A program made the translations under genes and the position numbers. The notes beneath the pieces are model-generated. The model did not search any database, was not told where the DNA came from, and saw only the letters and a list, made by a program, of their open reading frames with translations. From assembly GCF_009795845.1 (NCBI RefSeq), contig NZ_WTEX01000011.1, forward strand, positions 1-64,000: DNA of 64,000 nucleotides. Reading direction: 5' to 3'. Positions within the stretch are counted from its first letter, which is position 1. Every line of letters begins with the position of its first letter. The DNA comes from Gilliamella sp. Lep-s35. GTDB lineage: Bacteria; Pseudomonadota; Gammaproteobacteria; Enterobacterales; Orbaceae. Shown here piece by piece: positions 23,559 through 53,488 of this stretch.

Positions 23559-24995
23559 TTAATCATTAATCACTCCCATTTGAATGCAATATTTTTTGAC
23601 TTTATATTGTAACGTTGTGCGTGAAATGTTTAATATTTTTGCTGCTGTAATAATTTTACCATTAGCTTGATTTAAGGCATCAATGATAAGTTGTCGTTCG
23701 TAGTTTTCTACTTGTTCGGTTAAGTTATTTCCGTTTGGCGATGTGATTTGTGTTGTTTTGTTTGGCTTACTGCTTTCATTGCCTTGATAAAATGAACTAT
23801 TGAGATCAAATAGTTCTTCGTCAAGTGTGATATGTTTTAATTCACCTGGTTCGCTTTGCAATACCATACTTCTGACTATAGTATTTTCAAGCATTCGCAC
23901 ATTACCAGGCCAAGGGGCTGATATTAATTGTTGTAGTGCATGTTCACTAATACCGCTGATAACAATATTTATATCATTTTTATGTTTATCAATAAAATAG
24001 TGCGCTAAAACGGGAATGTCTTCTGTTCTGTCTCGTAAAGCTGGGAGCTTTATTAAACCTACGTTTAATCGATAAAATAGATCATTTCTTAATTTACCTG
24101 TTTTTAATAATTCTGTTGGTGATTCATTCATCGCTGCAACAATACGAACATCAGAATACATTTCTTTATTGCCACCTAATGGCCAATAGGTTTTTTCTTG
24201 TAAAAATCGTAATAATTTGCTTTGCATATCTAAAGGCATGGCATTTAGTTCATCAAGAAACAGTGTACCGCCATTAGCAAGCTCTAAATATCCTTGTCGA
24301 GTTTCAGCGCCCGTAAATGCCCCTTTGACCGTACCAAATAGGGTGCTTTCAATTAGTGTTGTTGGTAACGCACTACAATTTAGGGATATGAAAGGTTTGT
24401 GTCGGCGCTGACTTGTTTGGTGTATTAAGCGAGCAAATAGCTCTTTACCTGTGCCTGTTTCGCCAACAATTAATACAGGAACATCATTTGCACCCAACAT
24501 ATTGGTTTGATCAATAACTTGTTGCATTTTTGAGGAAACAAAAACAATTTCGGGTAATGGTTGTTCTTTATTGTGGTATAACTTGCTATTTAGTTTAAAA
24601 ACCTGATCTTGTAAGTGCCTAACAGTAGATAAATTTCGTCCTATTTCTATTGCGCCGATAATTTCTTTATTCTTATTATAAAGTGGTACGGTTGTGTGCA
24701 TGTAATCAACAAATTTACCAACATGATTGTAATAACTTTGGTAATTATCTTGATATTCTTTACCTTGCTGTAGTGCTTGTAGCATGGTGCTGTCTTCTTT
24801 CTTCATTTTTGGATAAACCTTAAGTATGGGTTTACCAATAGCTTGCTCTATGGGGTAACCATCTAGTTCTGCACTTTCTTGATTGTAATAAATGTATTTG
24901 CCTTCTTTATTGATAATGGCGATTGGTTGATGGATTAGATCAAAAAAATGTTTAAATATATCTAGCGATTGTAATAATTCAGGATCGATTGTCAT
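23559..24995 (-). CDS. Sigma54-dependent transcriptional activator with PAS sensor
   Basis: This 478-residue protein is a bacterial enhancer-binding protein. An N-terminal PAS domain (about 15-125) should sense a small ligand. The AAA+ domain has Walker A GETGTGKE near 177-184, the sigma54-contact loop GAFTGA near 226-231, and LDELNAMP as Walker B. A Fis-type helix-turn-helix (about 440-470, AAKILNISRTTLQYKVKKY) binds DNA. There is no receiver domain. The architecture matches RocR of Bacillus, activator of arginine and ornithine catabolism. It is divergent from the decarboxylase operon, which has a sigma54 promoter and TGAC/GTCA dyads, so it very probably activates that operon. The inducer is unknown; ornithine, lysine or a diamine is my guess. 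Confidence 0.92.
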   Translation of the reverse strand: MTIDPELLQSLDIFKHFFDLIHQPIAIINKEGKYIYYNQESAELDGYPIEQAIGKPILKVYPKMKKEDSTMLQALQQGKEYQDNYQSYYNHVGKFVDYMHTTVPLYNKNKEIIGAIEIGRNLSTVRHLQDQVFKLNSKLYHNKEQPLPEIVFVSSKMQQVIDQTNMLGANDVPVLIVGETGTGKELFARLIHQTSQRRHKPFISLNCSALPTTLIESTLFGTVKGAFTGAETRQGYLELANGGTLFLDELNAMPLDMQSKLLRFLQEKTYWPLGGNKEMYSDVRIVAAMNESPTELLKTGKLRNDLFYRLNVGLIKLPALRDRTEDIPVLAHYFIDKHKNDINIVISGISEHALQQLISAPWPGNVRMLENTIVRSMVLQSEPGELKHITLDEELFDLNSSFYQGNESSKPNKTTQITSPNGNNLTEQVENYERQLIIDALNQANGKIITAAKILNISRTTLQYKVKKYCIQMGVIND

Positions 24996-25074: not shown

Positions 25075-25116
25075 TGACGAATTTTTGTCATAAAGATATG
25101 TTTTACACTATATGAC
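25075..25116. promoter_or_regulatory. Putative upstream activator sites of the decarboxylase operon
   Basis: TGAC at 25075 and GTCA at 25087 form a dyad (TGAC-N8-GTCA), and GTCATA at 25087 also pairs with TATGAC at 25111. The array lies about 60-100 bases before the sigma54 promoter, the usual distance for an enhancer. The likely binder is the divergent Fis-type activator; this is inference. Confidence 0.5.
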
Positions 25117-25171
25117 TAATTTTCTTTTGTGATAATTATTATTAATGATTTGATTATTATTGTTTTTTAAG

Positions 25172-25189
25172 TTGGCATACTGATTGCAT
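25172..25189 (+). promoter_or_regulatory. Sigma54 promoter of the decarboxylase operon
   Basis: TTGGCATACTGATTGCAT has GG at 25174-25175 and GC at 25186-25187, exactly ten bases apart, matching the -24/-12 consensus TGGCAC-N5-TTGCA with one change. Transcription should start near 25199, giving a leader of about 55 bases before the decarboxylase. Confidence 0.88.
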
Positions 25190-25254
25190 TACAGGTGAGA
25201 AGCCATTTTTCTTATTCATTATGTACTTTTATGTACTAATTAACTGGAGGTCAT

Positions 25255-26652
25255 ATGTCCGACACAATTATGTCAAATTATAACAAAATACGCACTGATC
25301 TTGTAACTAAAGATCGTCGTTTTAGTGCTGAAAGTGGCAAACTATGTTTTGATGGTATTAATTTAGAAAAGTTAGCCAAAAAATATCCAACGCCTTTTTA
25401 TGTGTTTTCTGAAAAGGAAATTGATCGTAATGTGCAAGAAATCAAAGATGCATTTAAAGCGCATCCAAATACAAAAATCTTCTATGCATCAAAAACCTGT
25501 TCTGTAATGGGTGTGCTTAAAGCAATTAAAGATGCAGGAATTTATGCTGAAGCGAACTCAATGTTTGAAGTGCGTAAATGTTTAGATATCGGTTTCCCTG
25601 GTAGCCAAATTGTGTTTAATGGTGTGGTTAAAAAACCAGTGGATTTAGAGTTTGCTATCCAAAATGATCTTTATATTATCAATGTGGATAGCTTATATGA
25701 GCTTGATATTATTGATGAAATTTCAAGACGTTTGAAAAAAGTAGCAAATGTTTGTGTTCGTGTTGAGCCAAATGTTCCGTCAGCAACTCACGCAGAATTA
25801 GTTACTGCTTATCATGCTAAGTCAGGTATCGATTTAGAACAAGCAGAAGAAACCTGTCGTCGTATTTTAGAAATGCCATATGTTCATTTACGCGGTTTAC
25901 ATATGCATGTTGGTGATCAGGTGCCTGAAGCCGAGCCTTTTGCTAAAGCAACGAAGGTTTTAGTTGATGAATCACGTCGCTTAGAAGAAGTGCTTGGTAT
26001 TAAATTTGATTTAATCAACGTTGGTGGCGGGATTCCTGTTCCATATAAATATGATGAAGAAAATGGTAATCCATTAGAAGATAATATGTATGCAGGTATT
26101 ACGGCACAAGATTTTGCTGATGCGGTTATTAGTGAAGTACACAAATGGCGCACTGATGTTGAGATCTGTATTGAACCAGGTCGTAAAGTAACAGGCTCAG
26201 CTGGTGTGCTTGTAACTGAAGTTGCCTGTGAAAAACGTAAAACCAATTATGATTTAGACGGCAACATTGAGGAGCATGTTGAGTGGAAATTTGTTGATGC
26301 AGGCTATAGTGTTTTATCTGATAGTCAACATTTTGATTGGTTCTTCTATGTTTATAATGCTTCAAAAATTAATGAAACACATGATGAGTACATCAAATTA
26401 GCAGGTCCTTTATGTGATGGAGGTGACTATTTCCATGTAGGTGTTAAAGGTGAAGAATTCTTAATGCCAAAAGACACTCAAATCGGTGATATTGTGGCTT
26501 TCCTTGATGCTGGTGCTTATACCATCGAAAGCCAAACTGTTTATAACAATCGTCCTCGTACTTCTGTTGTTATGATAGATAAAGAAGGTAAAGATCGATT
26601 GATTCGCCGTGAGGACACTTACGAAGATATGGTTGGATACGACATCTATTAA
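25255..26652 (+). CDS. Fold-III PLP decarboxylase, probably D-ornithine/D-lysine decarboxylase
   Basis: The protein (465 residues) is an alanine-racemase-fold decarboxylase of the LysA/ornithine decarboxylase group. The PLP lysine is Lys80 in FYASKTCS. The phosphate-binding glycines are VGGGIP at 256-261 and EPGRKVTG is at 307-314. The second-subunit cysteine is Cys387 in [10 protein letters not shown]. In meso-diaminopimelate decarboxylase this loop usually reads CESGD, so CDGGD and the lack of lysine-biosynthesis neighbours argue against LysA. Length and setting recall the Salmonella enzyme DokD (STM2360), shown to act on D-ornithine and D-lysine; I recall this from the literature and could not align. 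The racemase two genes downstream would supply the D-isomer. The start has a strong GGAGG. Products would be putrescine or cadaverine. Confidence 0.75.
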
Positions 26653-26657
26653 TCATC

Positions 26658-26688
26658 AATATCTGGGGCATTTTATGCTCCAGATATT
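26658..26688 (+). other. Intercistronic hairpin between decarboxylase and exchanger genes
   Basis: AATATCTGGGGCAT and ATGCTCCAGATATT pair over 14 positions (one G-U) with a TTT loop. No T-run follows, so it is more likely an mRNA stabiliser or processing site than a terminator. It would allow more decarboxylase than transporter to be made. Confidence 0.6.
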
Positions 26689-26704
26689 ATAAAGTGAGGT
26701 TATT

Positions 26705-28111
26705 ATGAGTGATTCTAAAGATTCAAGCCTACTTGGTATTAAAGACATTGTTTTTATGAATGTCATTGCAATACTAAGTTTGCGCCAAATTCCGAATGTT
26801 GCTCCTTATGGAGCGTCAGCGATGGTACTTTGGTTACTTGCTGCATTTTGTCTTTTCTTCCCATTAGCGATGGTTTGCGGTGAGCTTTCAACTGGTTGGC
26901 CAAAAGATGGTGGTATTTTTGTTTGGGTAAAAGAAGCATTTGGTAAACGTATTGGTTGGATTGTTGTTGTTTGCTTTTTGTTTTCTTGCGTTCTTTTCTT
27001 CCCTCTAATGTTGCAATTTGGCTTTACTGCCATAGGCTATATGTTTAGTGCGGAGCTAGCTCAAAATCAAGTGTTTATTGGCGTTGGTTCAATGGTTGTG
27101 TTTTGGATTCTAACGTTGATGAATATTCGTGGCATGCAATGGACTAAAATCATTAATAGTGTGAGTGCATGGCTTGGCGTATTTATTCCTGCTGCCATTA
27201 TTATTGTTTTAGCCGTGGTGTGGTTATTAACTGGGCATCCAATGGCAACAAGTTATAGCCATGTTAGTGATTGGATCCCTGATTTAAGCAGTTGGGATAC
27301 TATCGTATTTTTGTCTAGCATGATGTTTGCATTTGCAGGTCTTGAAGTTGCACCTATGATTGCAGGACGTACGCGCGATCCTCAACGTGATTTTCCAAAA
27401 GCAATGCTAGTTTCTGCAATTGTAATTGTTGGTATTTATATGGTGGGTTCATGGGCAATTAATACATTGTTACCTGCAGCTGATACCGATATTGTTGCTG
27501 GTGTTATGCAAGCGATGGAAGCTGCGGCTAATGAATTACATATGCCTTGGTTATTACCTGTTATGGCAATTTGTTTATTCTTTGGCGCTTTAGGACAAAT
27601 TAACTCATGGTTAGTAGGCCCTATTTATATGTTACAAGAAGCATCAAAAGAAGATAATTTGCTTGGTGAGCGTATTGGTCGTTTACATCCTGTGTATAAA
27701 ACACCTGCTTTTGCTTTAATTATTCAAGCAATTATTGTTACTGTGCTTTGTTTTTCAACATTTGTGTCACCAAGTATTGCAGCGGCATATTGGATGTTAA
27801 CAGCACTTACAACAATTTGTTATTTTATTCCATATTTAGTGATGTTTATTGCGTATTATCGTTTACGCTTTACTCAACCTGATGTACCGCGTAGCTTTAA
27901 AATTCCAGGTAAGATTATGCCAATTGTTTTACCTGCATTAGGATTTTTATCAACGCTATTTGCTGTCATTTTGGTCTTTATTCCACCAGCTCAAATTGAT
28001 ATGGGGGGATATGTTGAGTATATCGCTAAAATAGTAGGTGGTGCTGTGCTTGCTATTGGTTTAGCTGAGTGGATCTACTATCGAGCACAAAAGCGTAACC
28101 GTTTGCAATAG
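26705..28111 (+). CDS. APC family amino acid exchanger (GadC/AGT type)
   Basis: This 468-residue inner-membrane protein has about 12 hydrophobic helices. The N-terminal IVFMNVIAILSLRQIPNVAPYGAS and the CGELSTGWPKDGGIFVWVKEAFG segment are typical of the glutamate:GABA antiporter branch of the APC superfamily. FAGLEVAPMIAGRTRDPQRDFPKA at about 213-236 carries the conserved substrate-site region. In a decarboxylase operon an exchanger of this kind usually brings in the amino acid and releases the amine. Here that would be ornithine or lysine for putrescine or cadaverine (inference). It follows the decarboxylase by 52 bases with a hairpin between, and precedes the racemase by 25 bases. Confidence 0.8.
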   Translation: MSDSKDSSLLGIKDIVFMNVIAILSLRQIPNVAPYGASAMVLWLLAAFCLFFPLAMVCGELSTGWPKDGGIFVWVKEAFGKRIGWIVVVCFLFSCVLFFPLMLQFGFTAIGYMFSAELAQNQVFIGVGSMVVFWILTLMNIRGMQWTKIINSVSAWLGVFIPAAIIIVLAVVWLLTGHPMATSYSHVSDWIPDLSSWDTIVFLSSMMFAFAGLEVAPMIAGRTRDPQRDFPKAMLVSAIVIVGIYMVGSWAINTLLPAADTDIVAGVMQAMEAAANELHMPWLLPVMAICLFFGALGQINSWLVGPIYMLQEASKEDNLLGERIGRLHPVYKTPAFALIIQAIIVTVLCFSTFVSPSIAAAYWMLTALTTICYFIPYLVMFIAYYRLRFTQPDVPRSFKIPGKIMPIVLPALGFLSTLFAVILVFIPPAQIDMGGYVEYIAKIVGGAVLAIGLAEWIYYRAQKRNRLQ

Positions 28112-28136
28112 TAACAATATATAGAGGAGTAATTGT

Positions 28137-29243
28137 ATGTACAAACCTATATTAGAAATTGATTTGCGCAAATTAAGAAATAATGCTCGCGTTGAAAAGG
28201 AATTGTTAGCTAAACACGGCATTGAAGTCATGGCTGTCAATAAAGTTTTTGATGGCTGTGTAGAAACCGCCAAAGCCGTCCTTGACGGCGGTATCGATGT
28301 GATTGCCGAGTCAAGAACTTACAATTTAAAAAAATTGAAAGAGGCTTTAAATTGTAAAACATGCTTATTACGCAGTCCTTGTTTAAGTGAAATTACTGAT
28401 GTGGTTAAATATGCTGATATTAGCCTAAATAGCGAAAGGCAAGTTATTCAAGCCCTTTCTGATGAAGCGGTTAAGCAACAAAAAGTTCATCAAGTGTTGT
28501 TGATGGTAGATATGGGAGATTTGCGAGAAGGTATTTGGTTTGAACATGTTGATGAAATTATTGATATGGTCAAATTAATTCTTTCTTTACCAGGTGTTGA
28601 GCTCTATGGGCTTGGCACCAATTTCAACTGCTATGGTACCGTTTTACCAACAGTAAAAAATGGAGTGGACTTTTTACATATTGCGCGTAAAGTAGAAGAG
28701 TCTTGTAATATTAAAATTAACTATTTATCGGCTGGTAATTGTACAAGCTATCACCTATTAGATAAAGGTATTTGGCCAGAAGGGTTGAATCACTTAAGAA
28801 TAGGAGGATTGCATGAATTTGGTATTGAGTATGTAGATATGAAATATCTGGATGAGTTTCATCATTCAAGCAAACCTGTTGATAAAGCATGTAGTGATTT
28901 GTATAAATTATATGCGCAAGTTATTGAGCTCAATAGCAAGCCAACAGTTCCTGTTGGTGAATTAGGTGTAGATGCATTTTTAAACAGCAAAACGTTTGTT
29001 GATAATGGTACACGCAAACGAGCACTTCTTGCCTTTGGACGGCAAGATGTACCCGCCGAAAGCTGTGTGCCTATCAATGATAAAATTACTGTTTTAGGGC
29101 AAACAAGTGATCATACTATTGTTGATATCGAAGATGTTTCTGAAACATTACATGTCGGTGATATGATCGGTTTTGAACTTGATTACACTGCCTTACTTAT
29201 GGCTTGCCAAACAAATGGTGTAGAAAAACGGTTTATTTATTAA
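28137..29243 (+). CDS. orr: Alanine/ornithine racemase family PLP enzyme, probable ornithine racemase
   Basis: This 368-residue protein has the alanine racemase N-terminal barrel with PLP lysine Lys36 in VMAVNKVFDG. Segments VDMGDLREGIWFE, GLGTNFNCYGTVLP and YLSAGNCTSYHLL resemble the clostridial ornithine racemase Orr, which interconverts L- and D-ornithine. It lacks the typical C-terminal domain of classical Alr, so a cell-wall D-alanine role is unlikely. Lying between the decarboxylase and permeases, it would supply D-ornithine (or D-lysine) for decarboxylation. GAGGAG precedes the ATG. A strong terminator follows at 29253, which makes it the last gene of the core operon. Substrate is inferred from similarity recalled by eye and from context. 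Confidence 0.75.
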   Translation: MYKPILEIDLRKLRNNARVEKELLAKHGIEVMAVNKVFDGCVETAKAVLDGGIDVIAESRTYNLKKLKEALNCKTCLLRSPCLSEITDVVKYADISLNSERQVIQALSDEAVKQQKVHQVLLMVDMGDLREGIWFEHVDEIIDMVKLILSLPGVELYGLGTNFNCYGTVLPTVKNGVDFLHIARKVEESCNIKINYLSAGNCTSYHLLDKGIWPEGLNHLRIGGLHEFGIEYVDMKYLDEFHHSSKPVDKACSDLYKLYAQVIELNSKPTVPVGELGVDAFLNSKTFVDNGTRKRALLAFGRQDVPAESCVPINDKITVLGQTSDHTIVDIEDVSETLHVGDMIGFELDYTALLMACQTNGVEKRFIY

Positions 29244-29252
29244 TTGTGTTAG

Positions 29253-29275
29253 CTGCTGGGAAACCAGCAGTTTTT
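29253..29275 (+). terminator. Terminator inside the cluster, after the racemase gene
   Basis: The stem CTGCTGG / CCAGCAG closes a GAAA tetraloop and is followed by TTTTT. It stands between the racemase and the second permease, so the permease is expressed by read-through or from a promoter not recognised here. Confidence 0.85.
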
Positions 29276-29296
29276 ATTGATTATTAGGCGGTTTAT

Positions 29297-30691
29297 ATGG
29301 CAACATCAGAATCACAAGAAAGTCCTTATCCCAGTAGTTTGAAGAAAAACCTAAAAAATCGTCATCTTTTGATGATTTCTTTAGGTGGTTCAATTGGCAC
29401 TGGCTTATTTATCGGTATCGCATCACCACTTAGTACGGTTGGTCCATTAGGAACCATTATTGCCTATTTAATGGCAGGAAGCATAATGCTTTCAACTATG
29501 TTATGTTTAGGCGAGCTTTCTTGTGCATTCCCTCATGCCGGCTCTTTTCAACATTATGCATTGATGTTTATACCCAATCCAATTTGGAGTTATACCATCG
29601 GTTGGTTGTATTGGCTTAGTTGGGTGCTATCTATGGCAGCTGATTTGACTGCTGCTTCTATGATTGCTCACCAAACTTTCCCTTCGATTCCTATTTATCT
29701 TTTTAGTCTATTAATTCTAATTGTTCTTACTTCAGTGCATTTAACCTCTGTTCGTGCATTTGGAGAAAGTGAGTATTGGTTTTCAACGATTAAGGTTCTT
29801 GCGATTATTGCATTTATTGGGGTGGGGATTTATTTACTTCATCACCAATATACCCAAACGCATATCTTACCAACATTTAAAACCGAAAAAGGCTGGTTTC
29901 CTAATGGCTTTTTAGCAATATTTGTTTGTATGACTATTGTTACTTATTCATTTCAAGGTGTCGAATTAATTGGAAATGCAGCGGGTGAAGCTGAGTCTCC
30001 GCAATCTGTTTTACCTAAAATTATTACTGGTGTTGCTTTTCGTATTATTTTATTTTATGTCTTGGCTATTGCTGTTTTGGCTTTGGTGTATCCATATGGA
30101 ACAGAACATAATGAAATCAGTCCATTTGTGTGGGTATTTAATCAGGCTGGAATTACATTTGCTTCGTATTTAATGCTTTTTGTGATTTTTTGTGCAGCTA
30201 TATCTGCTGCTAATTCAGCTATTTATGCAAGCTCAAGAATGTTGTGGTCTATGGCCCAAGATAATTTGGCTCCGAAATATTTTTCAGAAGTAAATCGACG
30301 AGGAGTGCCAACAAAGGGTATATTATTTATTGCTGTTATTGCATTAGTTTCTTTGTTTTCTAAATATATTGCGGCTGAAAAGCTTTATATTTATTTAGTA
30401 GCAGGTACAGGGCAAGTAGGGTGCTTTGCGTGGATTATTATTGCTTGGTGCCAATATCGTTTTCGTAAAGGTGTAAATAGCGGTAAATACGCTAAAGAGA
30501 TGATAAAGTTTAAGTCACCACTTTTTCCTTGGCTTGCTGTTATTTCTATCATTATAAATAGTATTATTATTGTTGGTGTTTGGTTTGGTGAATCTGGGAA
30601 ATTTATTTTATTATCTGAAGTTATATTAGTTATTATTATTCTTATTTCTTATTTGTTTTATAAAAAAAACAACCCAATTAAAAATGATTAA
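29297..30691 (+). CDS. Amino acid permease, AAT/LysP-RocE type
   Basis: This is a 464-residue APC-superfamily permease with about 12 helices. The first helix region LLMISLGGSIGTGLFIGIASPLSTVGPLG and the YSFQGVELIGNAAGEAESPQSVLPK segment (about 218-242) are diagnostic of the amino acid transporter family that includes LysP, RocE and GabP. A role in ornithine, arginine or lysine uptake fits both similarity and context (inference). It is separated from the racemase by a terminator, so it may be a proton-coupled importer expressed at a lower level than the exchanger. AGGCGG lies before the ATG. Confidence 0.8.
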   Translation: MATSESQESPYPSSLKKNLKNRHLLMISLGGSIGTGLFIGIASPLSTVGPLGTIIAYLMAGSIMLSTMLCLGELSCAFPHAGSFQHYALMFIPNPIWSYTIGWLYWLSWVLSMAADLTAASMIAHQTFPSIPIYLFSLLILIVLTSVHLTSVRAFGESEYWFSTIKVLAIIAFIGVGIYLLHHQYTQTHILPTFKTEKGWFPNGFLAIFVCMTIVTYSFQGVELIGNAAGEAESPQSVLPKIITGVAFRIILFYVLAIAVLALVYPYGTEHNEISPFVWVFNQAGITFASYLMLFVIFCAAISAANSAIYASSRMLWSMAQDNLAPKYFSEVNRRGVPTKGILFIAVIALVSLFSKYIAAEKLYIYLVAGTGQVGCFAWIIIAWCQYRFRKGVNSGKYAKEMIKFKSPLFPWLAVISIIINSIIIVGVWFGESGKFILLSEVILVIIILISYLFYKKNNPIKND

Positions 30692-49404: not shown

Positions 49405-49421
49405 TGGCATTATATTTGCAT
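49405..49421 (+). promoter_or_regulatory. Sigma54 promoter of glnA
   Basis: TGGCATTATATTTGCAT has GG at 49406-49407 and GC at 49418-49419, ten bases apart. Expected start is near 49431, about 60 bases before glnA. This corresponds to the nitrogen-regulated glnAp2 of enterobacteria. Confidence 0.88.
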
Positions 49422-49492
49422 ATTATCTAATAATTCGGCAAGAATACCTTTTAAACTGAACAATTATTATTTGTCCTTAATGGAGAAGATAC

Positions 49493-50902
49493 ATGTCTAT
49501 ACAAAAAGTTTTAAAATTAATTAAAGAAAATGATGTGAAATTTGTTGATTTACGTTTTACCGATACTAAAGGTAAAGAGCAACACGTAACTATCCCTGTT
49601 AGTCAAATTGATGCGGATTTTTTTGAAGATGGTAAAATGTTTGATGGTTCATCAATTGCTGGTTGGAAAGGAATTAATGAATCAGATATGGTATTAATGC
49701 CTGATGCTTCAACTGCGGTTATTGATCCATTTTTTGAAGATGTAACATTAAATCTACGTTGTGATGTATTAGAACCAGCAACACTGCAAGGGTATGATCG
49801 TGATCCTCGTTCAATTGCTAAACGTGCTGAAGAGTTTTTAAAATCATCAGGTATTGCTGATACCGTTATTTTTGGGCCTGAGCCAGAGTTTTTTTTGTTT
49901 GATGATGTCCGTTTTGGTTCGCCAATGTCAGGTAGCTTTGTGCATATTGATGATATTGAAGCCGCTTGGAATTCTGGTACTAAATATGAAGAAGGCAATA
50001 AAGGACATCGTCCTGGTGTGAAAGGTGGTTATTTTCCACTTCCTCCAGTTGATTCATCACAAGATATTCGTTCTGAAATGTGCTTAATTATGGAGCAGCT
50101 TGGTTTAGTGGTCGAGGCTCATCACCACGAAGTGGCAACTGCGGGTCAAAACGAAATTGCATGTCGTTTTAATACGTTAACTAAAAAAGCTGATGAAGTA
50201 CAAATCTATAAATATGTAGTACAAAATGTTGCTCACGCTTACGGTAAAACTGCGACGTTTATGCCTAAACCAATGTTTGGGGACAATGGTTCAGGTATGC
50301 ACTGTCACCAATCATTAGCGAAAGATGGCGTAAATTTATTTGCTGGCGATAAATATGCAGGTCTTTCTGAAATGGCATTATTCTATATTGGTGGCATTAT
50401 TAAACACGCTAAAGCAATTAATGCATTTACTAACCCAGCGACTAACTCTTATAAACGTTTAGTACCAGGTTATGAAGCACCTGTAATGCTTGCTTACTCA
50501 GCACGTAACCGTTCTGCATCAATTCGTATTCCTGTTGTAACTAGCCCTAAAGCTCGTCGTATTGAAGTTCGCTTCCCAGATCCAGCTGGTAATCCATATT
50601 TATCTTTTGCTGCACAGTTAATGGCTGGTTTAGATGGTATCATCAATAAAATTCACCCTGGTGATGCAATGGATAAAAACTTATATGACTTACCACCAGA
50701 AGAGTCTAAATTAATTCCGCAAGTTGCAGGTTCACTAGAGGAAGCTCTTAACGCATTAGATGCAGATCGCGAATTTTTAACTCGTGGTAACGTATTTACT
50801 AATGACACTATTGATGCTTATATTGATTTAAAACGTCAAGATGTTGATCGTGTACGTATGACTCCACATCCAGTTGAGTTTGAAATGTACTATAGTTTAT
50901 AA
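49493..50902 (+). CDS. glnA: Glutamine synthetase, type I
   Basis: GlnA joins ammonia and glutamate with ATP to give glutamine, the main route of ammonium assimilation with gltBD. The dodecameric enzyme's family marks are visible: [22 protein letters not shown] near the N-terminus, [22 protein letters not shown], and [17 protein letters not shown]. The adenylylation tyrosine lies in [10 protein letters not shown] at about 397, so control by GlnE is likely. The length of 469 equals E. coli. It has both NtrC sites and a sigma54 promoter upstream. Confidence 0.99.
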
Positions 50903-50922
50903 GTTATTTTTACAATAAATTT

Positions 50923-50948
50923 AAACCACCGCTAACGTGCGGTGGTTT
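50923..50948 (+). terminator. Hairpin between glnA and glnL
   Basis: AAACCACCGC and GCGGTGGTTT form a perfect 10-bp stem with a 6-base loop. Only CTAAAT follows rather than a T-run, so it may attenuate rather than fully stop glnA transcripts, leaving less glnLG message. Processing is the alternative. Confidence 0.65.
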
Positions 50949-50972
50949 CTAAATCAGGACGGAAAACCGACG

Positions 50973-52022
50973 ATGACATTTGCTAATGAATCTGATGCTA
51001 ATCTTGTTCTCGATTCAATGCTCACAAGTATTTTATTACTTGATAAAAAACTTAATATTCTTTATGTTAATACTGCAGCACAACAGTTATTAGCGCAAAG
51101 CAACAAAAAGCTACTAGAAAGTTATTTTCCCGACTTATTAAGCTATTTTTCATTAGATATTAATTTAATGCTGAGTGCATTAGAACAAAATCAAGGTTTT
51201 ACCGACAATGAAGTGAATTTAGTTATTAATAATGAATTGCATATTTTATCGTTGACTGCTCAACTATTAGGTAATGGTCGCATTTTAATTGAGATGGTTC
51301 CATTAAATAATCATAAACGCCTTAGTCAAGAACAACTGCAACAAGCTCAACAAAATGCAGCTCGTGAATTAGTTCGAGGGCTTGCTCATGAAATAAAAAA
51401 TCCTCTAGGAGGGCTTCGAGGCGCCGCTCAGCTATTATCACGCGAATTACCTAAAAATGAATTACAAGATTATACAAAAATCATTATTGAACAGGCAGAC
51501 AGATTACGAAATCTTGTCGATAGATTATTAGGACCACAACAACGTTTGCAACAAAAAGAGCAAAGTATCCATCAAGCAATAGAGCGAACTTATGCTTTGC
51601 TGTGTTTAGAAAAGCCAATCAATATTGAAATTTTTCGTGATTATGACCCAAGTTTACCGGATTTTATTCATGACTCCGAACAAGTAGAGCAAGTGATTTT
51701 AAATATTGTTCGTAATGCTTTACAGGCCATTGGTTCTAATTCTGGCATAATTACAATTAGGACAAGAACAGCTTTTCAGGTTACTTTACACGGGCAGCGT
51801 TACCGCTTATGTGCTCGTATTGATATTGAAGATACAGGTCCAGGAGTGCCTGTACATATACAAGATACCTTATTTTACCCTATGGTGAGTGGCTATGAAG
51901 GTGGTACAGGTATTGGGCTTTCAATTGCACACAATATTGTTGATCAACATCACGGTAAAATCGAATTTAATAGTTGGCCTGGGCATACGATTTTTTCTGT
52001 CTATCTGCCAATTAAGCAGTGA
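50973..52022 (+). CDS. glnL: Nitrogen regulation sensor kinase GlnL (NtrB)
   Basis: NtrB phosphorylates NtrC when nitrogen is short and, with PII, dephosphorylates it when nitrogen is plentiful. There is a PAS domain at about 10-115. The phosphorylated His139 lies in [16 protein letters not shown], the same position as in E. coli. The ATPase has [11 protein letters not shown] (N box), DTGPGVP and [15 protein letters not shown] (G boxes). The start is taken at the ATG that opens MTFANESD (349 residues). An earlier GTG frame start at 50937 lies within a hairpin and is not accepted. Confidence 0.96.
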
Positions 52023-52033
52023 GGTAAATTAAA

Positions 52034-53488
52034 ATGAATGTTTGGATTGTTGATGATGATAGTTCAATTCGCTGGGTATTAGAAAAAGCATTAACTAATG
52101 CTCATTTTAACTGTGTTAGTTTTGAGAGTGGTCAACAAGTTATTGATGCATTAAATACATATGTACAAAAACCAGCAGTATTAATTTCTGATATCAAAAT
52201 GCCGGGGCTTGATGGCTTAACATTACTTCATTATGTTAAAGAAAAGTTGCCTCATTTACCTGTTATTATTATGACTGCCCATTCTGATCTGGATGCAGCA
52301 GTAAATGCCTATCAAAAAGGTGCTTATGATTATATCCCTAAACCTTTTGATGTGGACGAAGTTATACAACTGGTTGAAAGGGCAATTTCCCAAACTCAAA
52401 CCAATAAAACTAACAATAATACAACTACAAAAGCATCAACAGGCATTATTGGTGAAGCCCCTTCAATGCAAGAGGTATTTCGTATTATTGGACGATTATC
52501 TAAATCATCAATTAGTGTACTTATCAATGGTGAATCAGGCACGGGTAAAGAGTTAGTTGCTAAAGCATTACATACCCATAGCCCACGTTCTCAATCCCCT
52601 TTTATTGCGTTAAATATGGCTGCAATTCCTAAAGAGCTGATTGAAGCTGAACTTTTTGGGCATGAAAAAGGCGCATTTACAGGTGCTGCTCAAATTAGGC
52701 ACGGACGGTTTGAACAAGCTAATGGTGGCACTTTATTTTTGGACGAAATTGGTGATATGCCACTTGATGTTCAAACTCGATTACTCAGAGTTTTAGCCGA
52801 TGGGCAGTTTTACCGTATTGGTGGTTATTCCCCCGTAAAAGTTGATGTGCGAATTATTGCAGCTACACATCAAGATTTAGAGGTAAGAGTTAGAGAAGGT
52901 AAATTTAGAGAAGACTTATTTCACCGTTTAAACGTTATTCGTATATTACTTCCGCCTTTACGGGATAGATCGCAAGATATTCCAAAACTTGCTGAACATT
53001 TTTTGCATACCACAGCAAAAGAACTTGGCGTAGAAAGTAAAATATTAAGCTCCGAAGCATTAGATGTTTTATGTCGATTTAATTGGCCAGGTAATGTTCG
53101 CCAACTTGAAAATACCTGTCGATGGATTACGGTAATGTCTTCAAATAAAGAAGTTCTTGTTCAAGATTTACCGCCAGAATTGTTGCAATTATCAACAACT
53201 AAAATGATTGATAAAAATGAATATTCAGCATTAACTACTAACCGATTATCACAACAACAAGCCGATTGGAAACAATTATTTGAACAATGGGCAAAGCAAG
53301 CCCTTATGAGTGGGAAAACGGGCATTTTGACTGAAGTGATACATGATATTGAATGTATCTTATTAAAAAATGCGCTTAATTTTACTCGAGGCCATAAACA
53401 AGATGCGGCTCATCTATTAGGTTGGGGACGCAATACATTAACGCGAAAACTTAAAGATTTATCAGTTGATCCAAATCAAAATTTCTAA
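52034..53488 (+). CDS. glnG: Nitrogen regulator GlnG (NtrC)
   Basis: NtrC is a sigma54 activator. The receiver domain has Asp53 in LISDIKMPG as the phosphate acceptor. The AAA+ domain has GESGTGKE near 169-176, the sigma54 loop GAFTGA near 211-216, and LFLDEIGDMP. The C-terminal Fis-type helix-turn-helix is at about 450-475 (DAAHLLGWGRNTLTRKLKDL). The length of 484 is near E. coli (469). It follows glnL by 11 bases. It should bind the two sites before glnA. Confidence 0.97.
   Translation: MNVWIVDDDSSIRWVLEKALTNAHFNCVSFESGQQVIDALNTYVQKPAVLISDIKMPGLDGLTLLHYVKEKLPHLPVIIMTAHSDLDAAVNAYQKGAYDYIPKPFDVDEVIQLVERAISQTQTNKTNNNTTTKASTGIIGEAPSMQEVFRIIGRLSKSSISVLINGESGTGKELVAKALHTHSPRSQSPFIALNMAAIPKELIEAELFGHEKGAFTGAAQIRHGRFEQANGGTLFLDEIGDMPLDVQTRLLRVLADGQFYRIGGYSPVKVDVRIIAATHQDLEVRVREGKFREDLFHRLNVIRILLPPLRDRSQDIPKLAEHFLHTTAKELGVESKILSSEALDVLCRFNWPGNVRQLENTCRWITVMSSNKEVLVQDLPPELLQLSTTKMIDKNEYSALTTNRLSQQQADWKQLFEQWAKQALMSGKTGILTEVIHDIECILLKNALNFTRGHKQDAAHLLGWGRNTLTRKLKDLSVDPNQNF

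Follow-up and report, generated by a model that had tools for sequence, protein, structure and literature searches.

Organization of the locus

The window analysed here, a 64,000-nucleotide stretch of DNA from Gilliamella sp. Lep-s35, carries a cluster of five intact genes, each assigned to its family with Pfam and NCBIfam models: an activator gene faces the gene of the decarboxylase DokD, which is followed by genes for a GadC-like transporter, an Orr-like racemase and an AAT-family permease (Table 1). The open reading frames lie where an earlier note on this DNA, made from the letters alone, had placed or implied them. The AAT permease indeed comes last, but that note had set it apart from the operon, of which it is a standing member (STM2357 position). 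The activator (Pfam Sigma54_activat, 213.7 bits, plus PAS_4 and HTH_8) is 57% identical to the divergent activator of the Salmonella locus L028; these domains and the GG-N10-GC match agree with the earlier description of a PAS-AAA-Fis activator gene divergent from a -24/-12 promoter.

The next gene after the AAT permease is marC-like and lies on the minus strand. The GC content of the cluster (34-38%) is like that of the window (35.7%), dN/dS is 0.02-0.09 for all genes, and trees, considered with regard to horizontal transfer, group Gilliamella close to the enterics and single out no clear donor. The genome to which the window belongs has a size of 2.47 Mb, and the closest named match of its DokD, with 100% identity, is that of Gilliamella sp. 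Pra-s52.

Table 1. Features of the DokD cluster, in window coordinates
Feature	Position	Strand	Remarks
bEBP (PAS-AAA+-Fis HTH)	23559..24995	-	STM2361 orthologue; predicted operon activator
Palindrome TGACGAATTTTTGTCA, 16 bp	25075..25090		candidate upstream activator-binding site
Possible second half-site TGACTAA	25113..25119		between palindrome and promoter; weak
Sigma54 promoter TGGCATACTGATTGCA (-24 GG / -12 GC)	25173..25188	+	TGGCA-N6-TTGCA, canonical GG-N10-GC spacing
DokD, fold-III PLP D-ornithine/D-lysine decarboxylase	25255..26652	+	NF052544, PDB 6n2h, conserved residues
APC-superfamily GadC-like transporter	26705..28111	+	AA_permease_2; probable amino acid/diamine exchanger
Orr-like PLP racemase	28137..29243	+	predicted ornithine (lysine) racemase; NF040742 below cut-off
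AAT-family permease	29297..30691	+	AA_permease; predicted basic amino acid importer

The STM2360-2356 operon of Salmonella Typhimurium depends on sigma54, and STM2361 is predicted to be its activator; a 100-fold increase is listed for it when the activator is constitutive, and the promoter of STM2360, TGGCATGCCTTTTGCTTT, is among those listed as bound by sigma54 (PMC3844500). Judged by sequence comparison, the Gilliamella cluster is a version of this already known operon: the divergent activator, the sigma54 promoter, DokD, the GadC-like and Orr-like proteins and the AAT permease stand in an order identical to that of STM2361/STM2360-2357, and the palindrome and promoter have matching spacing. 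The terminal ubiX gene, which is present in L028 and is not defining for the module elsewhere, is missing in Gilliamella; in Salmonella, argT and another gene for a binding protein also lie downstream.

The decarboxylase

The predicted decarboxylase passes the NCBIfam DokD equivalog model NF052544 with 886.4 bits against a cut-off of 700, and its best matches in the PDB are six distinct solved sequences at ~900 bits, five of them named D-ornithine/D-lysine decarboxylase (902 bits for 6n2h). It is identical to the enzyme of Salmonella enterica subsp. diarizonae at 385 of 465 positions (83%), and Lys80, Cys387 and Tyr430 (Salmonella numbering) are all conserved; the PLP lysine and the cysteine of the CDGGD loop are the residues that the earlier note had singled out. 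With the C387A mutation, the activity of the Salmonella enzyme drops to about 1% (PMC13294871), and a title in the reference list of the same article attributes altered stereospecificity to a Y430F mutant.

The segment DAGYSVLSD of the Gilliamella protein places Asp356 at the position of the distal Arg of DAP decarboxylase. In DAP decarboxylase the arginine of this segment binds the second carboxylate of the substrate, and the genome's own LysA (DAGMNNLIR) retains it. Asp at position 356 is common to the DokD relatives examined, and in 2019 Phillips and co-workers reportedly recognized the replacement of Arg by Asp as a specificity switch. It is extremely improbable that the gene is a duplicated DAP decarboxylase gene with unrelated neighbours. 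The lysA model TIGR01048 is just passed (299.9 vs 297.9 bits), as such a reading would have it, but the DokD model scores 886 bits, the distal Arg expected of LysA for the second carboxylate is replaced by Asp356, a separate LysA is encoded elsewhere in the genome, on contig C4, and the operon context is conserved. The model score, Asp356 and the separate LysA led us to reject the LysA paralogue.

The racemase and the transporters

The racemase is an Ala_racemase_N protein, 75% identical to its Salmonella orthologue, and its PLP lysine is Lys36, as had been proposed. It matches the Orr model NF040742 over the full length with 365.8 bits, which is under the cut-off of 480, and the same is true of the Salmonella orthologue (353.5 bits). 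The protein shares the PLP lysine with Orr but belongs with the STM2358 branch; it falls outside NF040742 membership and may work like Orr. STM2358 is said to have shown ornithine racemase activity in the hands of Phillips et al. in 2017.

The GadC-like transporter (Pfam AA_permease_2, 209 bits) is 82% identical to the Salmonella gene product in the corresponding place. Like the glutamate/GABA antiporter GadC it is a member of the APC superfamily, and the match is full-length, but with 319.4 bits it reaches about half of the curated GadC cut-off (650), and it represents a distinct subfamily found with DokD. The protein itself is probably an amino acid/diamine exchanger. The AAT permease (Pfam AA_permease, 348 bits), a predicted importer of basic amino acids, occupies the corresponding place in the loci of Salmonella, Citrobacter, Kluyvera, Edwardsiella, Mixta, Yokenella, Syntrophomonas and Sutterella.

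Promoter and candidate activator-binding site

A promoter-like match is expected in about 0.1% of first-order Markov sequences of equal length, and the pattern is matched four times when both strands of the entire window are scanned. Each locus that has an activator gene next to the cluster also has a counterpart of the promoter ahead of DokD. Of the remaining three matches in the window, one precedes glnA, a well-known sigma54 gene, by 88 bp, and the glnA-glnL-glnG locus (49405-53488) is a positive control for the promoter scan. The gene for sigma54 itself, rpoN, is present in the window's genome; the idea that its presence tracks that of DokD was rejected, because rpoN occurs in all 44 Orbaceae genomes.

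The palindrome starts at position 25075, exactly where the earlier note had set the beginning of the cluster. All 33 of the Gilliamella and enteric loci whose activator is divergent have a palindrome TGACRAATTTTYGTCA that precedes the -24 element by 96-99 bp and shows 0-4 mismatches to TGACGAATTTTCGTCA, and three or fewer mismatches were never reached in 1000 shuffles. The window's genome contains the exact pattern a single time. The palindromes of Edwardsiella differ in sequence, yet are still palindromic (CGCCGAATTTTCGGCG), and none was seen in the more distant Syntrophomonas loci. The palindrome is a likely binding site of the activator. In the aligned upstream regions, the TGAC of the possible second half-site is also shared by Gilliamella and most enterics. 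For the Salmonella activator STM2361 the binding site and the signal are listed as not known (PMC4987338), and the conserved palindrome thus provides a concrete prediction of the site.

In Gilliamella Choc4-2 (L021:7387-8000) stop codons interrupt what is left of the activator gene, the palindrome has decayed and the -24 GG has been lost, but the genes for the enzymes and transporters are intact and have low dN/dS. The joint decay of activator, palindrome and -24 element, a single event in a single strain, indicates that activator, site and promoter are tied together.

Distribution of the operon

The window's proteins were mapped onto 51 DokD loci. The full layout, with the activator facing DokD followed by the GadC-like, Orr-like and AAT genes, was found in 22 complete Gilliamella loci, and also in Salmonella, Citrobacter, Kluyvera, Yokenella, Edwardsiella, Mixta and Syntrophomonas; outside Gilliamella the same gene order is seen in two Salmonella loci and nine further ones. 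Sutterella and Photobacterium have the activator downstream instead. Throughout the mapped loci, every cluster with the GadC-like transporter also has the racemase. Distant DokD relatives in Brenneria, Desulfobacterium, Aquitalea and Oxalobacteraceae had no partner genes in the stretches examined. The view that the system is little described outside Salmonella holds for the literature that we found, and no account of Gilliamella together with the DokD operon turned up in the open literature searched, but the layout itself is shared by at least six other genera, and an NCBIfam equivalog model for DokD exists.

DokD is encoded in 32 of 35 Gilliamella genomes, in one case split over two contigs, and the genomes without it are two near-complete ones and one that is 59% complete. 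A gene that is common in the genus, yet missing from near-complete genomes, must be dispensable. None of the nine genomes from the other four Orbaceae genera encodes DokD, and blastn against the complete-genome collection gave no match for DokD in E. coli.

Other arrangements were observed as well. In a Veillonellaceae locus (L031:5456-10818) the order is GadC-like, Orr-like, DokD, PotE, without an activator or a sigma54 promoter. In two further loci (L032:7164-9395 and L044:8001-10271) DokD relatives without racemase and exchanger adjoin a basic amino acid ABC substrate-binding protein, and this version is possibly fed by ABC import.

Diamine metabolism and the proposed function

The genome was searched for other routes to diamines with fold-I and fold-III decarboxylases, agmatinase and spermidine synthase. 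It contains no OKR_DC_1 gene (fold-I ornithine/lysine/arginine decarboxylases of the SpeA, SpeC/F and CadA/LdcC types), no fold-III decarboxylase besides LysA and DokD, no spermidine synthase of the SpeE type, and no agmatinase over the cut-off (a weak arginase-family match has 30.8 bits, and 25.4 vs 174.3 with the agmatinase model). Among the families searched, DokD is thus the only recognized diamine-forming decarboxylase of this genome. Replacement of DokD by L-ornithine/L-lysine decarboxylases across Orbaceae was rejected: these exceed the cut-off in only three genomes of one other genus, and hence there is no clean replacement pattern.

With high probability the cluster is the Gilliamella counterpart of STM2361/STM2360-2357, in which an activator-switched sigma54 promoter serves a racemase and DokD, D-ornithine/D-lysine is converted to putrescine/cadaverine, and the diamine is most likely exchanged. 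A signal, probably sensed through the PAS domain, would lead the activator to bind the palindrome, which precedes the -24 element by ~97 bp, and to switch on the promoter; the permeases would bring in a basic amino acid, the Orr-like enzyme would interconvert L- and D-ornithine, possibly also lysine, DokD would turn the D form into putrescine (or cadaverine) by decarboxylation, and export of the diamine against incoming amino acid would most likely be the task of the GadC-like protein. The scheme is built on gene identities, orthology, active-site residues and the conservation of promoter and site, from which we infer the signal, the binding of the activator, the substrates and directions of transport, and the benefit. 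Its core, a racemase and a D-ornithine/D-lysine decarboxylase under a sigma54 activator, had been proposed in the earlier note, and the orthology with Salmonella, the active-site residues, and the joint conservation and joint loss of promoter and activator support it strongly; the biochemical route deduced there is very likely right. The diamine exchange by the GadC-like protein, a resulting proton gradient, acid tolerance and the feeding of host or neighbours, which that note proposed as well, are more conjectural, and the benefit may lie in acid tolerance, energy, putrescine supply or cross-feeding. Decarboxylase and exchanger are combined in the same way, for the same amino acids and diamines, in SpeF-PotE and CadA-CadB, but those systems use L-specific decarboxylases of fold I, a type not found in this genome, and have no racemase.

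We consider it unlikely that the operon serves to scavenge external D-ornithine or D-lysine, e.g. from peptidoglycan or peptides, with the racemase returning the D forms to the L pool. DokD acts on D-amino acids, as the title of Phillips et al. 2017, cited in PMC7857480, states, two permeases are without an assigned substrate, and racemization is reversible in principle. Yet if external D-ornithine were the only substrate, decarboxylation would need no racemase, whereas the racemase accompanies every GadC-like transporter, and the families of PotE and of the lysine/arginine/ornithine-binding proteins, which occur in other versions, are known for L-amino acids. That the operon supplies putrescine to the cell itself, and is not an exchange system, seems somewhat doubtful to us: the dearth of other decarboxylases and of agmatinase described above would fit, but the genome also lacks spermidine synthase, the operon includes the GadC-like exchanger, two near-complete Gilliamella genomes do without DokD, which is thus not essential to the genus, and a role of D-ODC in polyamine metabolism is argued to be unlikely (PMC7857480).

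Circumstantial evidence favours ornithine and putrescine as the amino acid and product of the system: the racemase resembles Orr, PotE, a putrescine-ornithine antiporter (589.6 bits, cut-off 409), stands beside DokD in the Veillonellaceae locus, and lysine/arginine/ornithine-binding proteins adjoin DokD in L044 and L032 (Aquitalea and Brenneria), and in Salmonella such proteins come after the operon. An ornithine carbamoyltransferase is encoded in the genome, which implies an ornithine pool. Conversion of lysine to cadaverine is possible.

Three points are worth keeping in mind: the predicted site of the activator, the regulation lost naturally in one strain, and a D-amino-acid route that appears to hold a monopoly on diamines in a bee symbiont. 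We suggest, tentatively, that in most Gilliamella, core symbionts of the bee gut, diamines might arise only via racemase-made D-amino acids and the sigma54-controlled DokD, putrescine or cadaverine being a main polyamine output to the bee and neighbouring bacteria. The operon is of a biochemically characterized kind and lies here in a genome with no competing diamine-making decarboxylase found.
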